DNA of 64,000 nt, from contig CALJOK010000057.1 in the NCBI GenBank assembly GCA_937981555.1, positions 1 to 64,000 of the forward strand. The letters run 5' to 3'. The notes under the pieces were generated by a model. The model ran no database searches, was not told where the DNA came from, and saw nothing but the letters and a program-made list of their open reading frames with translations. The stretch is from an uncultured Saprospiraceae bacterium (GTDB lineage Bacteria; Bacteroidota; Bacteroidia; Chitinophagales; Saprospiraceae). Below, in pieces: positions 7,109 through 38,159 of the stretch (within the stretch, counting starts at the first letter, position 1; every line of letters begins with the position of its first letter). Position numbers and translations under genes: made by a program.

Positions 7109-7151
7109 GAGGCGAAGCAAGGTAGTATTTCGAAAATCCTTACTTCGCCTC
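7109..7151. terminator. Bidirectional terminator between convergent genes
   Basis: GAGGCGAAG (7109-7117) pairs with CTTCGCCTC (7143-7151), extended by AAGG/CCTT after one mismatch, with a 15-nt loop. It lies just after the Sel1 gene stop. The right arm includes the last three sense codons (Glu-Ala-Lys) and, with its inner extension, the stop codon of the convergent spermidine-synthase-like gene, so the palindrome is partly coding. Confidence 0.65.
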
Positions 7152-8672
7152 ATTATTCAACGATCGCCAATGCTCCAAATAATATTCTAACAAAATCGGC
7201 TGATCTAAATTGTTAGGTAAAACATTCCCCACTCGCACATCTTTTGGAAAATAAAAAAGGTGTTTTAACATTTCTTCTTCTAAATATTTTGTTGGAATTG
7301 TATTGTTATATTTTAGTTCGAGATCATTTCGCGAAGCTAAAATAAATCCCCAATTTCCAAAACTCGGGACATTGATAGAGTAGGGGTAACGATGCTGGAA
7401 TCCAACAGATTCAAGGGTTGCGTCGATACACCAAAATGCATTGGGCGTCAAAGTCGAACTCGTCGCTTGCGTCACAAACAAACCTTCGGGACTTAAGTTT
7501 CGCATCACTAATTTGTAAAAAGCATTACTATAAAGTTTGGCGATGCTTTCGCTATTTGGATCTGGAAGGTCACCAATGATGACATCGTACGTTTCGTTTT
7601 TTTCTAATAAAAATTTAAAAGCATCATCGTTAATGACGGTCACTTTTTCAGATTCCAAAGCGCCGCCGTTAAGCTTTTTTATCAAATCCATTTCAGTCGA
7701 AAGTTTGGTGATTGCAGGATCGATATCTACGATGTCTAATTTTTCAATATTATATTTTAGCACTTCCCGAGCTGCCAAACCTTCGCCGCCGCCGAGCAAT
7801 AAAATATTTTTTGGATTAGGATGTTGCATCATCGCCAAGTGAACGAGCGACTCGTGATAACGATATTCATCACGTGAAGAAAACTGAATTGCACCGTTCA
7901 GATACAACCTAAATTCATTCGCATTTTTGGTCAAAGTAATATCTTGATACGAACTTTGTTCATTGTAAATAACTTGGTGTTTAAAGATACCGTCGTTCCA
8001 TCTTTTCATAAAAGAAGTACTCACCACAATGCTATAAATAATGATGGAAATCAAAATGGCAGAGGTCAAAAAGAAGATTCGTTTTTTTAATTTAGGCAAG
8101 GCAATCTCTTTTTGGAAAAAAAGAAACGTCGCTATTCCCACTAAAATATTGAGCAAACCAAAAAGCAAAGACGATTTATAAATCCCTACAAATGGCAATA
8201 AAAAAAAAGGAAACGCAATCGTCGCAATCAAAGCTCCCAAATAGTCGAAAGTCAAAATCGTCGATATATTATCTTTCAATGAATAATCATCTTCCAAAAT
8301 CCGAGTCAATAACGGCACTTCCAACCCTGTCAAAATTCCAATAATCGAAATGATAAAAAACACAAATAAATTATATCCTTCATAGTCAGCGTACAAAAAA
8401 TATCCATAGCAAAGCGGAACAGAAAATGCACCGACCAATCCCAATAATAATTCAATGACGACAAAATGATAAATTAAATCTTTTTTGAAAATTTTGGAAA
8501 CCCACGCACCCACGCCCATAAATGCCATGTAAAATCCAATGATGAGTGAAAATTGCTTTACGCTATTTCCCAAAAAATAAGAGCTCGCGGTAGAAATGAG
8601 CAACTCATATATTATGGAACACATGCCTACTAAAAAGGTAGTGAGTATAAGGAAGGATTTTTTATTTAGCAT
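7140..8672 (-). CDS. Membrane-fused spermidine synthase-like aminopropyltransferase
   Basis: A 510-residue protein. The N-terminal half (about residues 1-215) has seven or so membrane segments, such as SFLILTTFLVGMCSIIYELL and YLGALIATIAFPFFLLPFVG. The C-terminal half (about 225-500) is a Rossmann aminopropyltransferase/methyltransferase domain with the nucleotide-binding loop NILLLGGGEGLAAREVL, the acidic strand LDIVDIDPAITKL and the catalytic-region motif DVIIGDLPDPN. The usual family reaction transfers aminopropyl from decarboxylated SAM to putrescine; the membrane fusion is a recognised variant whose true substrate is less certain. SpeD, the enzyme supplying decarboxylated SAM, lies about 3 kb away, as does a polyamine-type ATP-grasp ligase. 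Its last codons lie inside the shared terminator. Confidence 0.85.
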   Translation of the reverse strand: MLNKKSFLILTTFLVGMCSIIYELLISTASSYFLGNSVKQFSLIIGFYMAFMGVGAWVSKIFKKDLIYHFVVIELLLGLVGAFSVPLCYGYFLYADYEGYNLFVFFIISIIGILTGLEVPLLTRILEDDYSLKDNISTILTFDYLGALIATIAFPFFLLPFVGIYKSSLLFGLLNILVGIATFLFFQKEIALPKLKKRIFFLTSAILISIIIYSIVVSTSFMKRWNDGIFKHQVIYNEQSSYQDITLTKNANEFRLYLNGAIQFSSRDEYRYHESLVHLAMMQHPNPKNILLLGGGEGLAAREVLKYNIEKLDIVDIDPAITKLSTEMDLIKKLNGGALESEKVTVINDDAFKFLLEKNETYDVIIGDLPDPNSESIAKLYSNAFYKLVMRNLSPEGLFVTQATSSTLTPNAFWCIDATLESVGFQHRYPYSINVPSFGNWGFILASRNDLELKYNNTIPTKYLEEEMLKHLFYFPKDVRVGNVLPNNLDQPILLEYYLEHWRSLNNEAK

Positions 8673-8750: not shown

Positions 8751-9398
8751 TTATTTATGATTTTTTATAATTTTTTTTGCTACATCAATAAACTCATCTT
8801 GAGAAAATGAAATTTCATTTGAGAAATCAATGTCACATTCTTTTCCTTCAAACCAAATCAATCTCGCTCCTTCATGTTCTTTATATAAGTATCCAAATTC
8901 AGCATTAATTTTTGCACAGAATGATTTAAAGAATTGGTTAATTGAAGTTGATTCTCGAATAAGCCTGCTCATATCTGATGAAACAGCCGTAAATGAAAAC
9001 TGAATTTCATTAGGGGTTTTGTCTTTGATACCCAAGTCAAAGGATCCAATTTCAAATTTTTTATTTATATAAAATGGAGGCTTCCAAGTATCTTTGTTAT
9101 TGGGGATTATTTTTTGTTCAGATTTGGAATGGATATAATTTAATATTTTATCATCTGGAAAAAAACGAAGTGAGCAAGATAAACTAAATTTTCTGTTTAG
9201 AACATCTTCTAAATCTTCTCTTTGGGATTGAACTTCTCCTTGAAAAGAATGGGAATAAAACTTTCTCACAAAATAAAACTTGTCGTTTTTATATTCAATA
9301 TGATTTTCATTCATTGAACAATTCTCCGAAATAAATTTTAACGTATCTCTGAGTTTATTTTTTTTTACATAAATATTATAACTGAAGTTTAGCCCCAT
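8751..9398 (-). CDS. Uncharacterised 215-residue protein
   Basis: I do not recognise this family. The protein is soluble, with no signal peptide or membrane segment, and is rich in Lys, Phe, Ser and Glu. It has an N-terminal beta segment (MGLNFSYNIYVKK), a predicted helical segment near residues 145-165 (SRLIRESTSINQFFKSF) and a C-terminal helix (DEFIDVAKKIIKN). Size, solitary position and the ligand-like sandwich arrangement recall orphan immunity or accessory proteins, but nothing in the sequence proves this. A TATATTTG box lies about 30 bp upstream of its start, so it probably has its own promoter. Confidence 0.7.
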   Translation of the reverse strand: MGLNFSYNIYVKKNKLRDTLKFISENCSMNENHIEYKNDKFYFVRKFYSHSFQGEVQSQREDLEDVLNRKFSLSCSLRFFPDDKILNYIHSKSEQKIIPNNKDTWKPPFYINKKFEIGSFDLGIKDKTPNEIQFSFTAVSSDMSRLIRESTSINQFFKSFCAKINAEFGYLYKEHEGARLIWFEGKECDIDFSNEISFSQDEFIDVAKKIIKNHK

Positions 9399-9452: not shown

Positions 9453-9842
9453 CTAACTGGTAATCTCAATAAAATTATCTTCAGGATCGAGCACCACACT
9501 TTCATAATATCCATCACCAGTTGTTCTTGGTTCGCCCTGAATAGTAAAACCATCCTCTCGTAATTTCTCTGTCAAAGCATTTACTTTTTCCTTAGAACCT
9601 ACACATACCGCAAAGTGAATGATGCCTAAATATTGATTGATTTTTTCATTTTTATTAATTGGAATATCTGGTCGATGCATTAATTCTAAGCGACAGCCTT
9701 CCTCAAAAGAAAGAAAATAGGAGGTGAAATTTTTAGTGGGGTTATGGTATTTTTCACCAGCGGAGGCATTGAAATATTTTTGATAAAAATCTTTCATCTT
9801 TTCCAAGTCATTTACCCAAATTGCTAAATGTTCAATTTTCAT
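9453..9842 (-). CDS. VOC-family (glyoxalase/dioxygenase fold) metalloprotein
   Basis: A 129-residue single-module vicinal-oxygen-chelate protein. Two beta-alpha-beta-beta-beta units are visible: IEHLAIWVNDLEKMKDFYQ at the N-terminus and IIHFAVCVGSKEKVNALTE in the middle. Candidate metal ligands sit in the expected places: His5 (EHLA), Glu in RLELMH, His in GIIHFAV, and the Glu of the C-terminal FIEIT strand. The family includes lactoylglutathione lyases, fosfomycin-resistance enzymes and extradiol dioxygenases. The sequence is closest in style to small glyoxalase-like proteins, but the substrate cannot be assigned. It stands between an unknown gene and the divergent lipoprotein gene. Confidence 0.85.
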   Translation of the reverse strand: MKIEHLAIWVNDLEKMKDFYQKYFNASAGEKYHNPTKNFTSYFLSFEEGCRLELMHRPDIPINKNEKINQYLGIIHFAVCVGSKEKVNALTEKLREDGFTIQGEPRTTGDGYYESVVLDPEDNFIEITS

Positions 9843-9958: not shown

Positions 9959-10507
9959 ATGGTAAAAATAAAATCACAGATCCTAAAAAAATCTGTAAAA
10001 AACCTTAAAATAGCTACGATGGTAATCGGTAGTGCATTTATTATGACTGGATTGGTATCTTCTTGTGGTGATAACACAGAATATGCAACAGTAGAAGTGT
10101 TGGATCCAACTCAAGGAGTCATCACGGAAGTTAAAGAAATGCAAAAAGATTTATTTAAAATCACCGACGAAAAAGTGGTAGCTACGAAAGATGATTCGCG
10201 AATTATTGCTGAATATCTGGATGGTCAAAGAGACACTTTTACATTGGCAGAAGCTCAATTAGTAGATGCTGAAAATCCAACTCGACGAAGTTCGATGAGT
10301 GGTGTATTGATGGGAGGAATGATGGGATATATGATGGGAAAAAGTATGAGTACTCCTGTTTCTAAGTCTGCTTATGCTAGCAATAGTGCTTATGCAAAAA
10401 GTAATACTTCAACTACTAGCTTAAAATCTTCTGCAAAAAGAACAACAGTTAGTAAACCTAAATCTGGATTTGGTTCTTCAAAATCATCTAGATCTTATGG
10501 TGGATAG
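9959..10507 (+). CDS. YgiB/UPF0323-like small lipoprotein ending in Gly-Gly
   Basis: A 182-residue exported lipoprotein. A basic N-terminus (about residues 1-18) is followed by a hydrophobic segment and a lipobox-like Ser-Ser-Cys at Cys36. The mature part has a Gly/Met-rich segment (SGVLMGGMMGYMMGKSM, about 115-131), then a Ser/Lys-rich, probably disordered tail ending SSRSYGG. Layout and context match the YgiB/YjfM (DUF1190) and UPF0323 lipoproteins, which neighbour YgiC/YjfC ATP-grasp proteins in other bacteria. From memory, E. coli YgiB also ends in Arg-Ser-x-Gly-Gly. The stop codon lies 11 bp inside the next gene, which encodes such a ligase, so the two are co-translated. The conserved free Gly-Gly end makes it a candidate ligase substrate (inference). 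Confidence 0.8.
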   Translation: MVKIKSQILKKSVKNLKIATMVIGSAFIMTGLVSSCGDNTEYATVEVLDPTQGVITEVKEMQKDLFKITDEKVVATKDDSRIIAEYLDGQRDTFTLAEAQLVDAENPTRRSSMSGVLMGGMMGYMMGKSMSTPVSKSAYASNSAYAKSNTSTTSLKSSAKRTTVSKPKSGFGSSKSSRSYGG

Positions 10508-11669
10508 AATTATCAAGTTGCCAGGGCGAGCTGAAAAAACGATTAGAGATAAAGGATATGCTTGGTTTATAGATGGGGAGAATGATGAATATTTAACGGA
10601 TGATGCGATTTTAATTAGTCAAGCTGAAACCGATAAATTAGTTGCCGCCTCTGAAGCCTGTTTTGTCCTTTACGAAAAAGCGCTAGACCATATTTCAAAA
10701 AATGATTTATGGTCTAGGCTTGGTTTGCCTCCCGAAATTATTCCTTTGATTCATCATGATATGAAGCGGAATTTGCCACACATCATTGGTCGATTAGACT
10801 TCGCTGGTGGACTAGAACAAATGCCAACGAAGTTGATTGAATTCAATGCAGATACCAATACGATCATGCCGGAATCTGCTTTGTTTCAATCGTGGATGTA
10901 CGAGCCCGTCAAAAAAGATTACAAAGGACAGTTTAATTATTTGCACAAAGATTTAGTGAAAACATTTATTGATCTGAAACAGCAGTTTCCAGATCGACCT
11001 GCAACTTTATTATTGAGTTCGTTAGGACATGTGGAAGATCGATTGAATCTAAATGTAATTTATAAAGCAGCTGTGGAAGCTGGGTTTGAGGTGGAGTATG
11101 CTGATTTAGAAAAAGTAGTTTTTGGCGACGATGGTGTTTTTCTTCATGCGCCAGATGGCTACAAGCAATACTTCTTTTTCTTCAAATTGATTCCATGGGA
11201 ATTCATCATGTTTGAAGAACCTGACTTAATGAAAATCTTAGTTGATCTTTCGATTAATCATGATTTGATTATTTTGAATCCATCATACAGTATCGTTTTT
11301 CAAGCAAAACATATTATGTCGATTATGTATGAAATGTTTCCCGAAAATGATTTGTTGTTGCCAACTTATGATAGCAAAAATTTCCTCAAGGGAAAACAAT
11401 ATGTTCGCAAAGGTAACTTTGGACGCTTAGGAGAAAATATAAAAATAGTGGATCCTTCTGGTGAAACGATTGCGAAGACAAAAGGTGACTTTGGCGATTT
11501 TACAAAAATCTTTCAAGAGTTTGCCGAAATGTATGCGGATGAAGATGGAGACATTTATCAACCAAGTATGTTTTTGGTGGATGGGAGAGCGAGTTGTATT
11601 TCGTTTCGAAGAAGAGATGATTTAATCATTGATGATGATGCGGAATTTGTACCGCATGTGATCTTTTAA
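10497..11669 (+). CDS. Glutathionylspermidine synthase-type ATP-grasp ligase (YgiC/YjfC family)
   Basis: I chose the ATG at 10497 (MVDRIIKLPGRAEKTIRDKG, 390 residues) rather than the in-frame ATG at 10470, because it begins at the conserved family N-terminus; it overlaps the lipoprotein gene by 11 bp. The C-terminal ATP-grasp fold shows LLPTYDSKNFLKGKQYVRK, FGRLGENI and the closing QPSMFLVDGRASCISFRRRD...FVPHVIF. The synthetase domain of E. coli Gsp joins the glycine carboxylate of glutathione to spermidine. YgiC/YjfC relatives lack the amidase half, and their acceptor is unknown. Nearby SpeD and a spermidine-synthase-like gene support a polyamine substrate. The preceding lipoprotein, which ends in Gly-Gly, could be the carboxyl acceptor (inference). 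Confidence 0.9.
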   Translation: MVDRIIKLPGRAEKTIRDKGYAWFIDGENDEYLTDDAILISQAETDKLVAASEACFVLYEKALDHISKNDLWSRLGLPPEIIPLIHHDMKRNLPHIIGRLDFAGGLEQMPTKLIEFNADTNTIMPESALFQSWMYEPVKKDYKGQFNYLHKDLVKTFIDLKQQFPDRPATLLLSSLGHVEDRLNLNVIYKAAVEAGFEVEYADLEKVVFGDDGVFLHAPDGYKQYFFFFKLIPWEFIMFEEPDLMKILVDLSINHDLIILNPSYSIVFQAKHIMSIMYEMFPENDLLLPTYDSKNFLKGKQYVRKGNFGRLGENIKIVDPSGETIAKTKGDFGDFTKIFQEFAEMYADEDGDIYQPSMFLVDGRASCISFRRRDDLIIDDDAEFVPHVIF

Positions 11670-11704
11670 AAACAAGTCTCTGCCATTTTTTTAGCTGACC
11701 TATG

Positions 11705-11878
11705 AACACGTGGTGATCTGCTTTAGCTGATCTGAAAAAAAGAGCGCAGCGAATTTTTTCCAAATAATTTCGAAAAAGAAAATCTATCAAATTGCACAAG
11801 AATAAATAAGTCTTGTGCAATTTTTTTTAATTGTTCCGCTCTTTTTTTAGGTCAGCTAAAGCAGACCACCACGTGTTT
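11705..11878. repeat. Inverted-repeat element, copy A
   Basis: Left arm (about 11705-11746) and right arm (about 11837-11878) are about 42-nt near-perfect inverted repeats. The arm begins AACACGTGGTG, continues TCTGCTTTAGCTGA, then an A-run and AGAGCG; only three positions differ between the arms. The same arm recurs at 18.0-18.2 kb and 38.05-38.16 kb. The element fills the gap between the convergent ligase and speD genes and ends at the speD stop codon. A partial extra copy of the inner motif (TTAGCTGACCT) sits at 11691-11701. A normal terminator hairpin lies in the middle. No transposase is present. It may be a non-autonomous mobile element or a transcription-boundary element. Confidence 0.8.
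11790..11829. terminator. Terminator inside repeat element A
   Basis: A perfect 12-bp stem AATTGCACAAGA / TCTTGTGCAATT with a 9-nt loop, followed by a run of eight T on the plus strand. It should end transcription of the lipoprotein-ligase operon, and its A-rich left side could also serve speD on the other strand. Confidence 0.85.
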
Positions 11879-12258
11879 TAAATGCTACTTGCTATTTGGT
11901 TGACGATTGCTAGATTTCCCCGATCATGAGAATTCACCACTTCCTTTTTCGCCTCCAAAATCTCTCTCAAATAATCGCAAGCTCCTCGCACATCCATTTC
12001 TAAATTACAAGTAAAAATATCAATCGCTGCAAAATCATACTCTGGCCAAGTATGAATATTAATATGACTTTCCTCAATCACAATCGTACCTGAAACGCCA
12101 TGAGGTGAAAATTGATGAAAATATTGTTGAACCATCGTAGCATTTGCTCTATTCGCAGCCTCGACCATTACCTTTTCAATAAAACTGACATCATTTAAAA
12201 ACGTCTTTTTGCAGCCATATAATTCTAGCATCGTTTGCCTTCCCAGTATTTGTTTCAT
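11878..12258 (-). CDS. speD: S-adenosylmethionine decarboxylase proenzyme
   Basis: A 126-residue bacterial class I SpeD of normal length. The self-cleavage and active-site block is clear: IEESHINIHTWPEYDFAAID around Ser64, the residue that becomes the catalytic pyruvoyl group after cleavage between Glu63 and Ser64, with His69 and Cys84 (FTC) as the conserved processing and catalytic residues. The enzyme makes decarboxylated SAM, the aminopropyl donor for spermidine. It converges on the ATP-grasp ligase gene and is separated from it only by repeat element A. Together with the membrane-fused aminopropyltransferase it forms a polyamine neighbourhood. Confidence 0.97.
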   Translation of the reverse strand: MKQILGRQTMLELYGCKKTFLNDVSFIEKVMVEAANRANATMVQQYFHQFSPHGVSGTIVIEESHINIHTWPEYDFAAIDIFTCNLEMDVRGACDYLREILEAKKEVVNSHDRGNLAIVNQIASSI

Positions 12259-18011: not shown

Positions 18012-18240
18012 CACGTAGTAGTCTGCTTTAGCTGACCTGAAAAAAGAGCAAAACGATTTTTTCCAAAAAAGAAATCCCAATTTTTTGATTGATCAAAAAA
18101 ATTGGGATTTTTAATTTAGTCCAATATCATTTTGTCATAAAAAGATAAAATCTGTTATGATTTCTGTGTTATATTGATTGTTTTTAGAAGAAATTGCTAT
18201 ACTCTTTTTTCAGGTCAGCTAAAGCAAACCACTACGTGCT
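18009..18240. repeat. Inverted-repeat element, copy B
   Basis: The left arm (about 18009-18048; TAACACGTAGTAGTCTGC, then TTTAGCTGACCTG and an A-run with GAG) is inverted at about 18202-18240 with few differences. Arm sequence and length match copies A and C. The stop codon of the methyltransferase gene forms the first three bases. The 150-bp interior holds a terminator and otherwise AT-rich sequence without a coding frame. Confidence 0.8.
18072..18113. terminator. Terminator inside repeat element B
   Basis: AAATCCCAATTTTTTGA pairs with TCAAAAAAATTGGGATTT around a TTGA loop, followed by TTTAATTT. It serves the methyltransferase gene. Confidence 0.85.
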
Positions 18241-38050: not shown

Positions 38051-38159
38051 TAACACGTAGCGGTCTGCTTTACCAGACTTGGAAAAAAAGAGTGCAGCGA
38101 TTTTTTTCATTTTTAGTTGATTCTTTTTTAGGTCAGCTAAAGTAGACCGCTACGTGTTA
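38051..38159. repeat. Inverted-repeat element, copy C
   Basis: The left arm (38051-38092; TAACACGTAGCGGTCTGC, then a diverged TTTACCAGACTTGG and an A-run) is inverted at 38123-38159 (arm TAACACGTAGCGGTCTAC, then TTTAGCTGACC). It is the shortest copy, with only about 30 bp between the arms and no internal terminator. It lies just upstream of the helical lipoprotein gene. This 300-bp gap holds no other feature except the terminator of arfB at its right end. Confidence 0.8.

Follow-up and report, generated by a model that had tools for sequence, protein, structure and literature searches.

A conserved Gly-Gly tail marks a lipoprotein as candidate substrate of an adjacent YgiC-type ATP-grasp ligase in a Saprospiraceae bacterium

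Introduction

What would a stand-alone ligase of the glutathionylspermidine (Gsp) synthetase type act upon, when its gene begins inside the last codons of a lipoprotein gene and polyamine genes lie around it? This question is raised by a locus of an uncultured Saprospiraceae bacterium (genome of 7.25 Mb in 117 contigs), which is found in the first 64,000 nucleotides of contig CALJOK010000057.1, the whole stretch that was analysed and is called here the window. A reading made from the letters alone, without database searches (the sequence-only reading), had described a lipoprotein ending SSRSYGG, whose gene overlaps by 11 bp that of an amidase-less Gsp-type ligase, with speD directly opposite, and this description agrees with the open reading frames (ORFs), the PF03738 match and the convergent gene order that we find (Table 1). 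According to our analysis the lipoprotein is likely to be a dedicated substrate, and the adjacent ligase would polyaminate its tail C-terminally before export; judging by the sequence comparisons described below, we give this reading a probability of about 60%. The pairing of the two genes and the tail are themselves real, conserved and testable.

The same reading had taken the related enterobacterial pairs YgiC/YgiB and YjfC/YjfM to have no established reaction, which is out of date, since a study of 2023 reported a peptide-spermidine ligase activity for the two enzymes. The accessible parts of PMC12568646 and PMC10948618 cite Pederick 2023 for YgiC and YjfC as 'peptide-spermidine ligases', RefSeq names them in the same way, and YgiC is stated, in the accessible text of PMC12506659, to be without Gsp synthase activity. 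The literature searched gave no natural substrate for YgiC/YjfC and no statement of the tail as a substrate, although Pederick 2023 may discuss it. The kind of enzyme is already known, and what is new here is the assignment of a substrate, the two-part tail common to different carriers, and the version of the system linked to speD and spermidine synthase (SpdSyn).

Results

The lipoprotein and the ligase form an obligate-looking pair. Genome contigs were scanned with an alignment of seven ligases, and in the 80 loci retained, the best of 547 confirmed, a homologue of the lipoprotein was recognised by an iterated hidden Markov model (HMM) in 69, at a median gap of 56 bp from the ligase; by plain blastp it is also by far the commonest conserved neighbour of the ligase (62 loci, the next family reaching 14). 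Among 296 Bacteroidota genomes that are 90% complete or more, a close ligase (E <1e-90) was found in eight, and the same eight carry the lipoprotein (Fisher p 7e-15, uncorrected for kinship), which ends with GG in six of them and with GS and SG in the rest; in genome G305 the two genes are both present, far apart on one contig. A single genome of the 288 others (G093) gave a weak lipoprotein hit (E 1e-4) with a hydrophobic FMLR end, which looks unrelated, and the 296 genomes offered no convincing lipoprotein without ligase that could serve as a control. In six further genomes the ligase is more distant (E 1e-53 to 1e-68) and belongs to a second Bacteroidota clade, in which this lipoprotein is absent and another small gene, lipoprotein-like in five of the six, stands just upstream of the ligase, once with a small ORF between them. 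Another two genomes gave no more than weak and partial matches to the ligase (E 6e-4 and 9e-4).

The end of the lipoprotein was compared in 76 ligase-linked members of the family, taken from the 69 loci and from seven relatives; they are not independent, and some tails are near-identical (L041/L045 and L071/L090, for example). Left out were the longer piece of the frame-broken L053, of which the C-terminal piece was kept, and L002, which shares a contig with L011. The last residue is Gly in 57 proteins, Ser in 18 and Ala in one, and the last two residues are GG in 53, SS in nine, GS in six, SG, HG and HS in two each, and RS and GA in one each. When each stretch of the last 30 residues is shuffled, Gly-Gly ends arise in 2.4 proteins on average and in at most eight in 5000 draws. 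Among the other six-frame ORFs of the ligase loci with 100 aa or more, which are not verified genes, 10 of 1125 end in this way; the 1125 include the L002 copy and the frames of E. coli YgiB and YjfM, so that this control is slightly conservative.

The other half of the conserved signal, missed by the sequence-only reading, is an RGGFG-type box, [KR]xG[FYW][GF], which lies within the last 45 residues of 57 of the 76 proteins as against 6 of 1092 background ORFs. The tails are also basic and almost free of acidic residues, the last 40 residues holding on average 0.54 D/E and 7.2 K/R, as against 3.8 and 5.1 in the background. By group, assigned by hand from record titles, terminal Gly-Gly is found in 23 of 25 relatives from the window's order, 13 of 15 Campylobacterota and 17 of 36 Cytophagales, and the box in 19, seven and 31 of them, respectively. 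A tree of the 76 ligases requires at least eight changes between Gly-Gly and other ends, so that the trait switches repeatedly and is yet clade-structured. Terminal Gly-Gly is, hence, common and not obligatory, and the feature that persists in these sequences is a small C-terminal residue after the Gly-aromatic box.

Within the genome that carries the window a relaxed S-x-[basic-type]-S-x-G-G pattern gave 43 matches as against 36 for the reversed control; 30 of the 43 end at a stop, 29 of these in frames of at most 37 residues, and only the window lipoprotein ends a real ORF. It is most likely, as far as the pattern search can tell, that this genome encodes one dedicated tail substrate.

The lipoprotein itself has an N-terminal hydrophobic signal stretch and a lipobox-like LVSSC, the Cys of which is its only one, and it contains a GYMMGK segment (GYMMGR in relatives). 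Its AlphaFold2 (AF2) model has an ordered domain at residues 42-170, mostly with a predicted local distance difference test (pLDDT) score above 90 and with a loop near 101-110 at 67; the tail is modelled with low confidence, as expected for a flexible substrate tail. No convincing relatives of the fold were found, there being no PDB match with E <0.001 and the best VIA-align Z being 2.4, for ribokinase. The protein is related to the PRK04081/NF003146 family, which we take to be UPF0323, only by iterated HMM (22 bits, below the equivalog cut-off of 194). Some carriers (L006, L012, L094, L095) were seen to carry a plain N-terminal membrane segment in place of the lipobox Cys, so that lipid anchoring seems dispensable for the system.

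The ligase matches PF03738 over its whole length (269 bits, cut-off 29.3, E 8e-80, residues 13-389), and an amidase half was not detected in its 390 residues, PF03738 being the only domain and PRK10507 reaching 91 bits at a cut-off of 882. Its nearest relatives in the PDB are YgiC (7uk8, E 5e-31) and YjfC (7uk6, 2e-25), followed by GspSA and trypanothione synthetase, and its AF2 model, built from seven sequences (the best pLDDT 85, the other four models 54-66), has the fold of YjfC 7uk6 (TM score 0.87, E 4e-30). All residues aligned with R316, D318, E330, N332, K498, K533, R538 and R598 of GspSA, numbers which we take to be those of the catalytic residues, are kept; across the linked ligases the catalytic residues are constant in 76 of 76, and R371 is kept in 75, the remaining one having a gap. 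The shared synthetase-domain fold and catalytic residues would imply the same chemistry as in E. coli GspSA, from which the window ligase differs in the missing amidase half, in the proposed acceptor, a protein tail and not glutathione, and in Thr at the positions of S335 and S337, presumably serines near the glutathione glycine. We regard it as an ATP-grasp enzyme of the YgiC/YjfC/GspS family, for which peptide-spermidine ligase activity is predicted. In L011 (2263-3432) an in-frame TAG was seen to break the frame of a close relative of this ligase, and the lipoprotein there keeps its GG; this may be an error or a recent loss.

The window also contains genes that could provide the amine. The sequence-only reading placed a spermidine-synthase-like gene 1.3 kb further on; the gene exists, 1,286 bp before the lipoprotein start, it proves to be a 7TM-SpdSyn fusion, and it lies on the opposite side of the pair from speD. 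Its PRK03612 match takes in the N-terminal membrane half, which makes it a member of the fusion family, and spermidine synthase structures match residues 227-487. For the counts, 7TM-SpdSyn was defined as PF01564 with E <1e-34 in frames of 510-560 residues, the shorter frames joined to speD (G025, G046, G049) not being counted and the membrane half being confirmed for the window and L120 only. Among 60 relatives, which are not independent, the fusion type was found in seven of eight ligase-bearing genomes as against 3 of 52 others (p 2e-6), and speD in six of eight as against 6 of 52 (p 4e-4); in 18 loci of the window's order speD occurs in 12. These conserved neighbours fit a polyamine as the amine donor. 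Putrescine is probably made, since the single PF02784 match of the genome is an arginine-decarboxylase-like gene (181 bits to PRK05354, cut-off 369) that is adjoined by an agmatinase (TIGR01230, 222 bits, cut-off 174).

The tail recurs on proteins of other build. E. coli YgiB, which the sequence-only reading gave as ending Arg-Ser-x-Gly-Gly, does end SSRSMGG, and YjfM ends GHWGG, both being DUF1190 proteins. The YgiC/YgiB and YjfC/YjfM pairs are like the window in ligase family and fold, in the position of the lipoprotein gene directly before the ligase, in these ends and in the GYMMGR-type segment. They differ from it in the body, which in the window is not DUF1190 (the Pfam match is below threshold, 16 bits at a cut-off of 22) and lacks the cluster of four conserved DUF1190 cysteines, and in the neighbours, since the window has speD and 7TM-SpdSyn in place of DUF350, PspA and YjfI, none of which was matched among the main genes at 3.6-20.6 kb. 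In an alignment of 13 hand-chosen DUF1190 rows from bacteria and phages Met1, four Cys, two Gly of the RGGFG/GGxG box and the last Gly are invariant, and 12 rows end with Gly-Gly; the window tail, with its KSGFG box and SYGG, is a variant of this signal. When the window family is compared with DUF1190 by hhalign, the 22-residue GYMMGR-type segment alone aligns (probability 95%, E 3e-8; still 87% with the last 45 residues cut off), so that the N-terminal bodies are not demonstrably related.

Plasmid and phage loci were added to widen this comparison, 19 being picked by hand for diversity (14 from plasmid searches with 158 and 138 records, 5 of 136 phage records). In 17 of them a tail-bearing protein is encoded no more than 600 bp from the ligase, in one case following it and otherwise preceding it, and in 13 it ends with GG; in phage phiAS4 three small genes (548 bp) separate carrier and ligase. 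No Pfam family reaches its threshold in the carriers of Bacillus, Arthrobacter, Tsukamurella, Trichormus and Sphingomonas. In Achromobacter phage Motura (L140, 1303-4128) a gene annotated as homospermidine synthase, a lipoprotein-like protein ending RGGFGSTGSSFSAGG and a GspS-like ligase stand in a row, and by gene content this looks like a complete cassette of amine, carrier and ligase. DUF1190 lipoproteins were also seen in large phages of Erwinia, Cronobacter, Citrobacter, Pectobacterium, Klebsiella, Salmonella and Enterobacter (L144-L150); these seven, taken from 133 YgiB-matching phage records, of which a few are probably bacterial, all keep the RGGFG box and GG, and a PF03738 ligase was found in none of the seven whole genomes. 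From all this we tentatively suggest, at somewhat short of even odds, that an RGGFG-type box with terminal Gly-Gly is a portable C-terminal polyamination signal for YgiC-type enzymes, borne by structurally different exported carriers in Bacteroidota, Campylobacterota, Proteobacteria and, with one GG example each, Actinomycetota and Bacillota, and that phages bring carrier and ligase together or the carrier alone, borrowing the ligase of the host.

Table 1. Positions of the features of the locus in the window
Feature	Position	Strand	Description
Carrier lipoprotein (candidate substrate)	9959-10507	+	182 aa, ends GFGSSKSSRSYGG; homologues in 69/80 ligase loci plus 7 relatives
Bipartite tail KSGFGSSKSSRSYGG	10460-10504	+	KSGFG box, Ser/Lys/Arg linker, terminal Gly-Gly; proposed recognition and acceptor site
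ATP-grasp ligase, YgiC/YjfC/GspS family	10497-11669	+	390 aa, PF03738, no amidase domain
Overlap of lipoprotein and ligase genes, 11 bp	10497-10507	+	ligase ATG at 10497 within the last lipoprotein codons
speD, S-adenosylmethionine decarboxylase (Bsu type)	11878-12258	-	TIGR03330 140 bits (cut-off 75.65); PF02675
7TM-spermidine-synthase fusion, membrane aminopropyltransferase	7140-8672	-	PRK03612 584 bits, cut-off 472, residues 4-504

An overlap of the same length is present in L011, L012, L016, L020 and L022. The ends of speD and the ligase gene are 208 bp apart. Between the SpdSyn fusion and the lipoprotein there are two genes (8751-9398 and 9453-9842), one of the glyoxalase family and one without family assignment; in the relative G020 fusion and lipoprotein genes are directly adjacent and divergent, so that the two intervening genes of the window look like an insertion. 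Between the ligase and speD an inverted repeat was noticed (11705-11877), with 36-nt arms that are 92% complementary; its core TCAGCTAAAGCAGA has seven copies in the window at up to two mismatches, where 0.44 are expected, the other sites being 18022-18228, 38064-38146 and 62176. As it recurs in three facing pairs and one single copy, it is probably a small mobile element or one similar to repetitive extragenic palindromes (REP-like).

Discussion

From the features of enzyme and tail a sequence of events may be proposed. The ligase would bind the flexible, acid-free basic tail via its K/R-x-G-F-G box, ATP would activate the C-terminal carboxylate (normally of Gly-Gly, sometimes of a Ser end) as an acyl phosphate, and an amide bond would then link it to a polyamine, most likely spermidine, at one of its primary amines. 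This amine may be supplied or shaped by SpeD together with the membrane aminopropyltransferase, with putrescine coming from the products of the arginine-decarboxylase-like and agmatinase genes. Since the ligase is ATP-dependent and shows no evident signal for export, such as the lipoprotein has, the modification should precede export; it would occur just after translation, which the overlapping genes would favour. In the product the tail would lose its negative carboxylate and spermidine would add two positive charges, so that the charge of an already basic tail would be raised and capped, which may serve the binding of anionic polymers, the stabilisation of the membrane, or a role towards phages or stress. 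The reaction on the window protein, its amine, its timing and its purpose are what we infer here.

Several observations weigh against such a role of the tail. Eleven of the 80 loci have no carrier in the flank (three of them have less than 350 bp upstream), and no tail-bearing protein was found in two of the 19 plasmid and phage loci. Terminal GG is missing in two of the eight co-occurring genomes, in 23 of the 76 carriers, 19 of these from Cytophagales, and in all six of the second clade, which end SS (four times), HA and GS and have the exact RGGFG box in three cases and a variant box in three; the box as defined is present in only seven of the 15 Campylobacterota carriers. With these losses a strict Gly acceptor fails, and a strict Gly-Gly rule is ruled out by the 19 of 36 Cytophagales that lack it and by the second clade. 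The matched pair of Gly-Gly tail and ligase that the sequence-only reading had proposed, thus, stands in its co-occurrence (eight of eight) and in the 53 GG ends of 76, and it does not stand as a universal rule (17 of 36 Cytophagales, none of six in the second clade).

The timing is a real difficulty as well, since of the two proteins only the lipoprotein is exported. The idea that GYMMGK is a transmembrane segment placing the tail in the cytoplasm was rejected: it is too weakly hydrophobic to cross a membrane alone (no 19-residue window is above a Kyte-Doolittle mean of 0.9), and AF2 puts it inside the ordered domain. A search for ligase residues that co-vary with the tail end gave none at the aligned catalytic positions, and its top columns look phylogenetic. 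The phages that keep the tail without a linked ligase run, at face value, contrary to the expectation that it is kept only where a ligase is present; their hosts are Enterobacterales, the E. coli control genome has a PF03738 ligase, and they may use the ligase of the host, so that they are no ligase-free control. On the side of the amine, G022 has the ligase and neither speD nor SpdSyn, G009 lacks speD, and phmmer detected neither gene beside the ligases of Cytophagales or Campylobacterota, which means that neither is obligatory.

What, then, could the locus do otherwise? It is unlikely, though it deserves serious consideration, that SpeD and the 7TM-SpdSyn fusion are a system of their own, aminopropylating some membrane substrate and merely neighbouring the pair, which would be compatible with the tail as a substrate. 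Three of the 52 relatives without ligase do have 7TM-SpdSyn-type genes. A study of 2019 (Li), which is cited in PMC11237479, is said to have proposed a polyamine-independent role of S-adenosylmethionine decarboxylase together with such fusions, whose function would then be a different one from spermidine synthesis. Against a mere neighbourhood speaks the gene order, in which the fusion is encoded on the other strand from the ligase, no more than 1.2 kb upstream of it, in 14 of the 18 loci of the window's order, and speD directly follows the ligase on the same strand in L012, L020, L022 and L029.

We consider it rather improbable that the ligase makes a small soluble peptide-polyamine conjugate, similar to glutathionylspermidine or of another kind, with the lipoprotein acting as an effector in this pathway and its tail being kept for, e.g., binding of an anionic polymer. 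The relative GspSA acts on glutathione, as PDB titles have it, strongly basic tails alone could serve binding, and the phage carriers retain theirs without a phage ligase; composition, however, explains neither Gly-Gly at this very position (53 as against 2.4 in the shuffled tails) nor its return on proteins of different build next to the same enzyme, and YgiC is, in the accessible text of PMC12506659, said to have no Gsp synthase activity.

That the tail is an acceptor and the amine is not a polyamine, being instead, for example, a lysine on a second protein (tagging or cross-linking), or else ethanolamine or phosphatidylethanolamine in the manner of an Atg8-like lipid anchor, seems to us improbable to a still higher degree. 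Ubiquitin-like conjugation in eukaryotes uses a C-terminal Gly-Gly as acceptor, as described in the accessible part of PMC12270671, and around the Cytophagales and Campylobacterota ligases no speD or SpdSyn was detected. The closest characterised stand-alone relatives are, however, reported active with spermidine (accessible parts of PMC12568646 and PMC10948618), speD and SpdSyn are enriched neighbours in the window's order, and in phage Motura it is a gene annotated as homospermidine synthase that adjoins carrier and ligase.

Finally, the notion that Gly-Gly is a by-product of a low-complexity tail rich in Ser, Gly and Arg, or arises because the lipoprotein gene overlaps the start of the ligase gene (14 of 14 overlapping pairs end GG), is mainly refuted and hardly credible, because GG is also the end in 39 of the 62 pairs without overlap, so that the overlap is not the source of the signal, all four Gly codons are in use at both positions and shuffling never gives more than 8 of 76, which together support selection of this end at the protein level.

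Polyamination of the lipoprotein tail, the reading that we prefer, may also be set beside systems known from elsewhere. The Campylobacterota pairs have a PRK04081/NF003146 lipoprotein of the same family (by iterated HMM), the same order of the two genes and GG in 13 of 15, and unlike the window have no speD or SpdSyn detected alongside. In the accessible part of PMC11237479, PspA/YjfJ-linked operons with a GspS-like ATP-grasp enzyme, DUF350 and DUF1190 connect this type of ligase with lipoproteins and polyamine genes, and such operons are linked there to PspA membrane-stress systems in other bacteria; that part names no C-terminal tail as a substrate and assigns the ligase to one group of operons and the SpdSyn fusion to another. 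The eukaryotic SUMO and ubiquitin system, according to the accessible part of PMC12270671, joins a C-terminal Gly-Gly carboxylate to spermidine (+127.147 Da) as is proposed here, and it does so with E1/E2 enzymes and beta-grasp modifiers, which have no demonstrated relation to the window ligase or lipoprotein.

A family member of Campylobacter concisus (L068, 4327-4944) was found to match PRK04081 with 307 bits. Cj0371 of C. jejuni we take to be a UPF0323 protein. It is polar, and its mutants are hypermotile with altered chemotaxis, as given in the accessible parts of PMC4944492 and PMC6104132; these mutant traits are a possible phenotype lead for the family.

Conclusions

The conservation of the tail names one candidate protein per locus, together with a short peptide, with which the proposed reaction can be tested. 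If our reading is correct, bacteria would possess a system dedicated to polyaminating envelope lipoproteins at their C-termini, by which polyamines would acquire a covalent role at the envelope and which would be a bacterial parallel to the SUMO-spermidine and ubiquitin-spermidine conjugates of eukaryotes.

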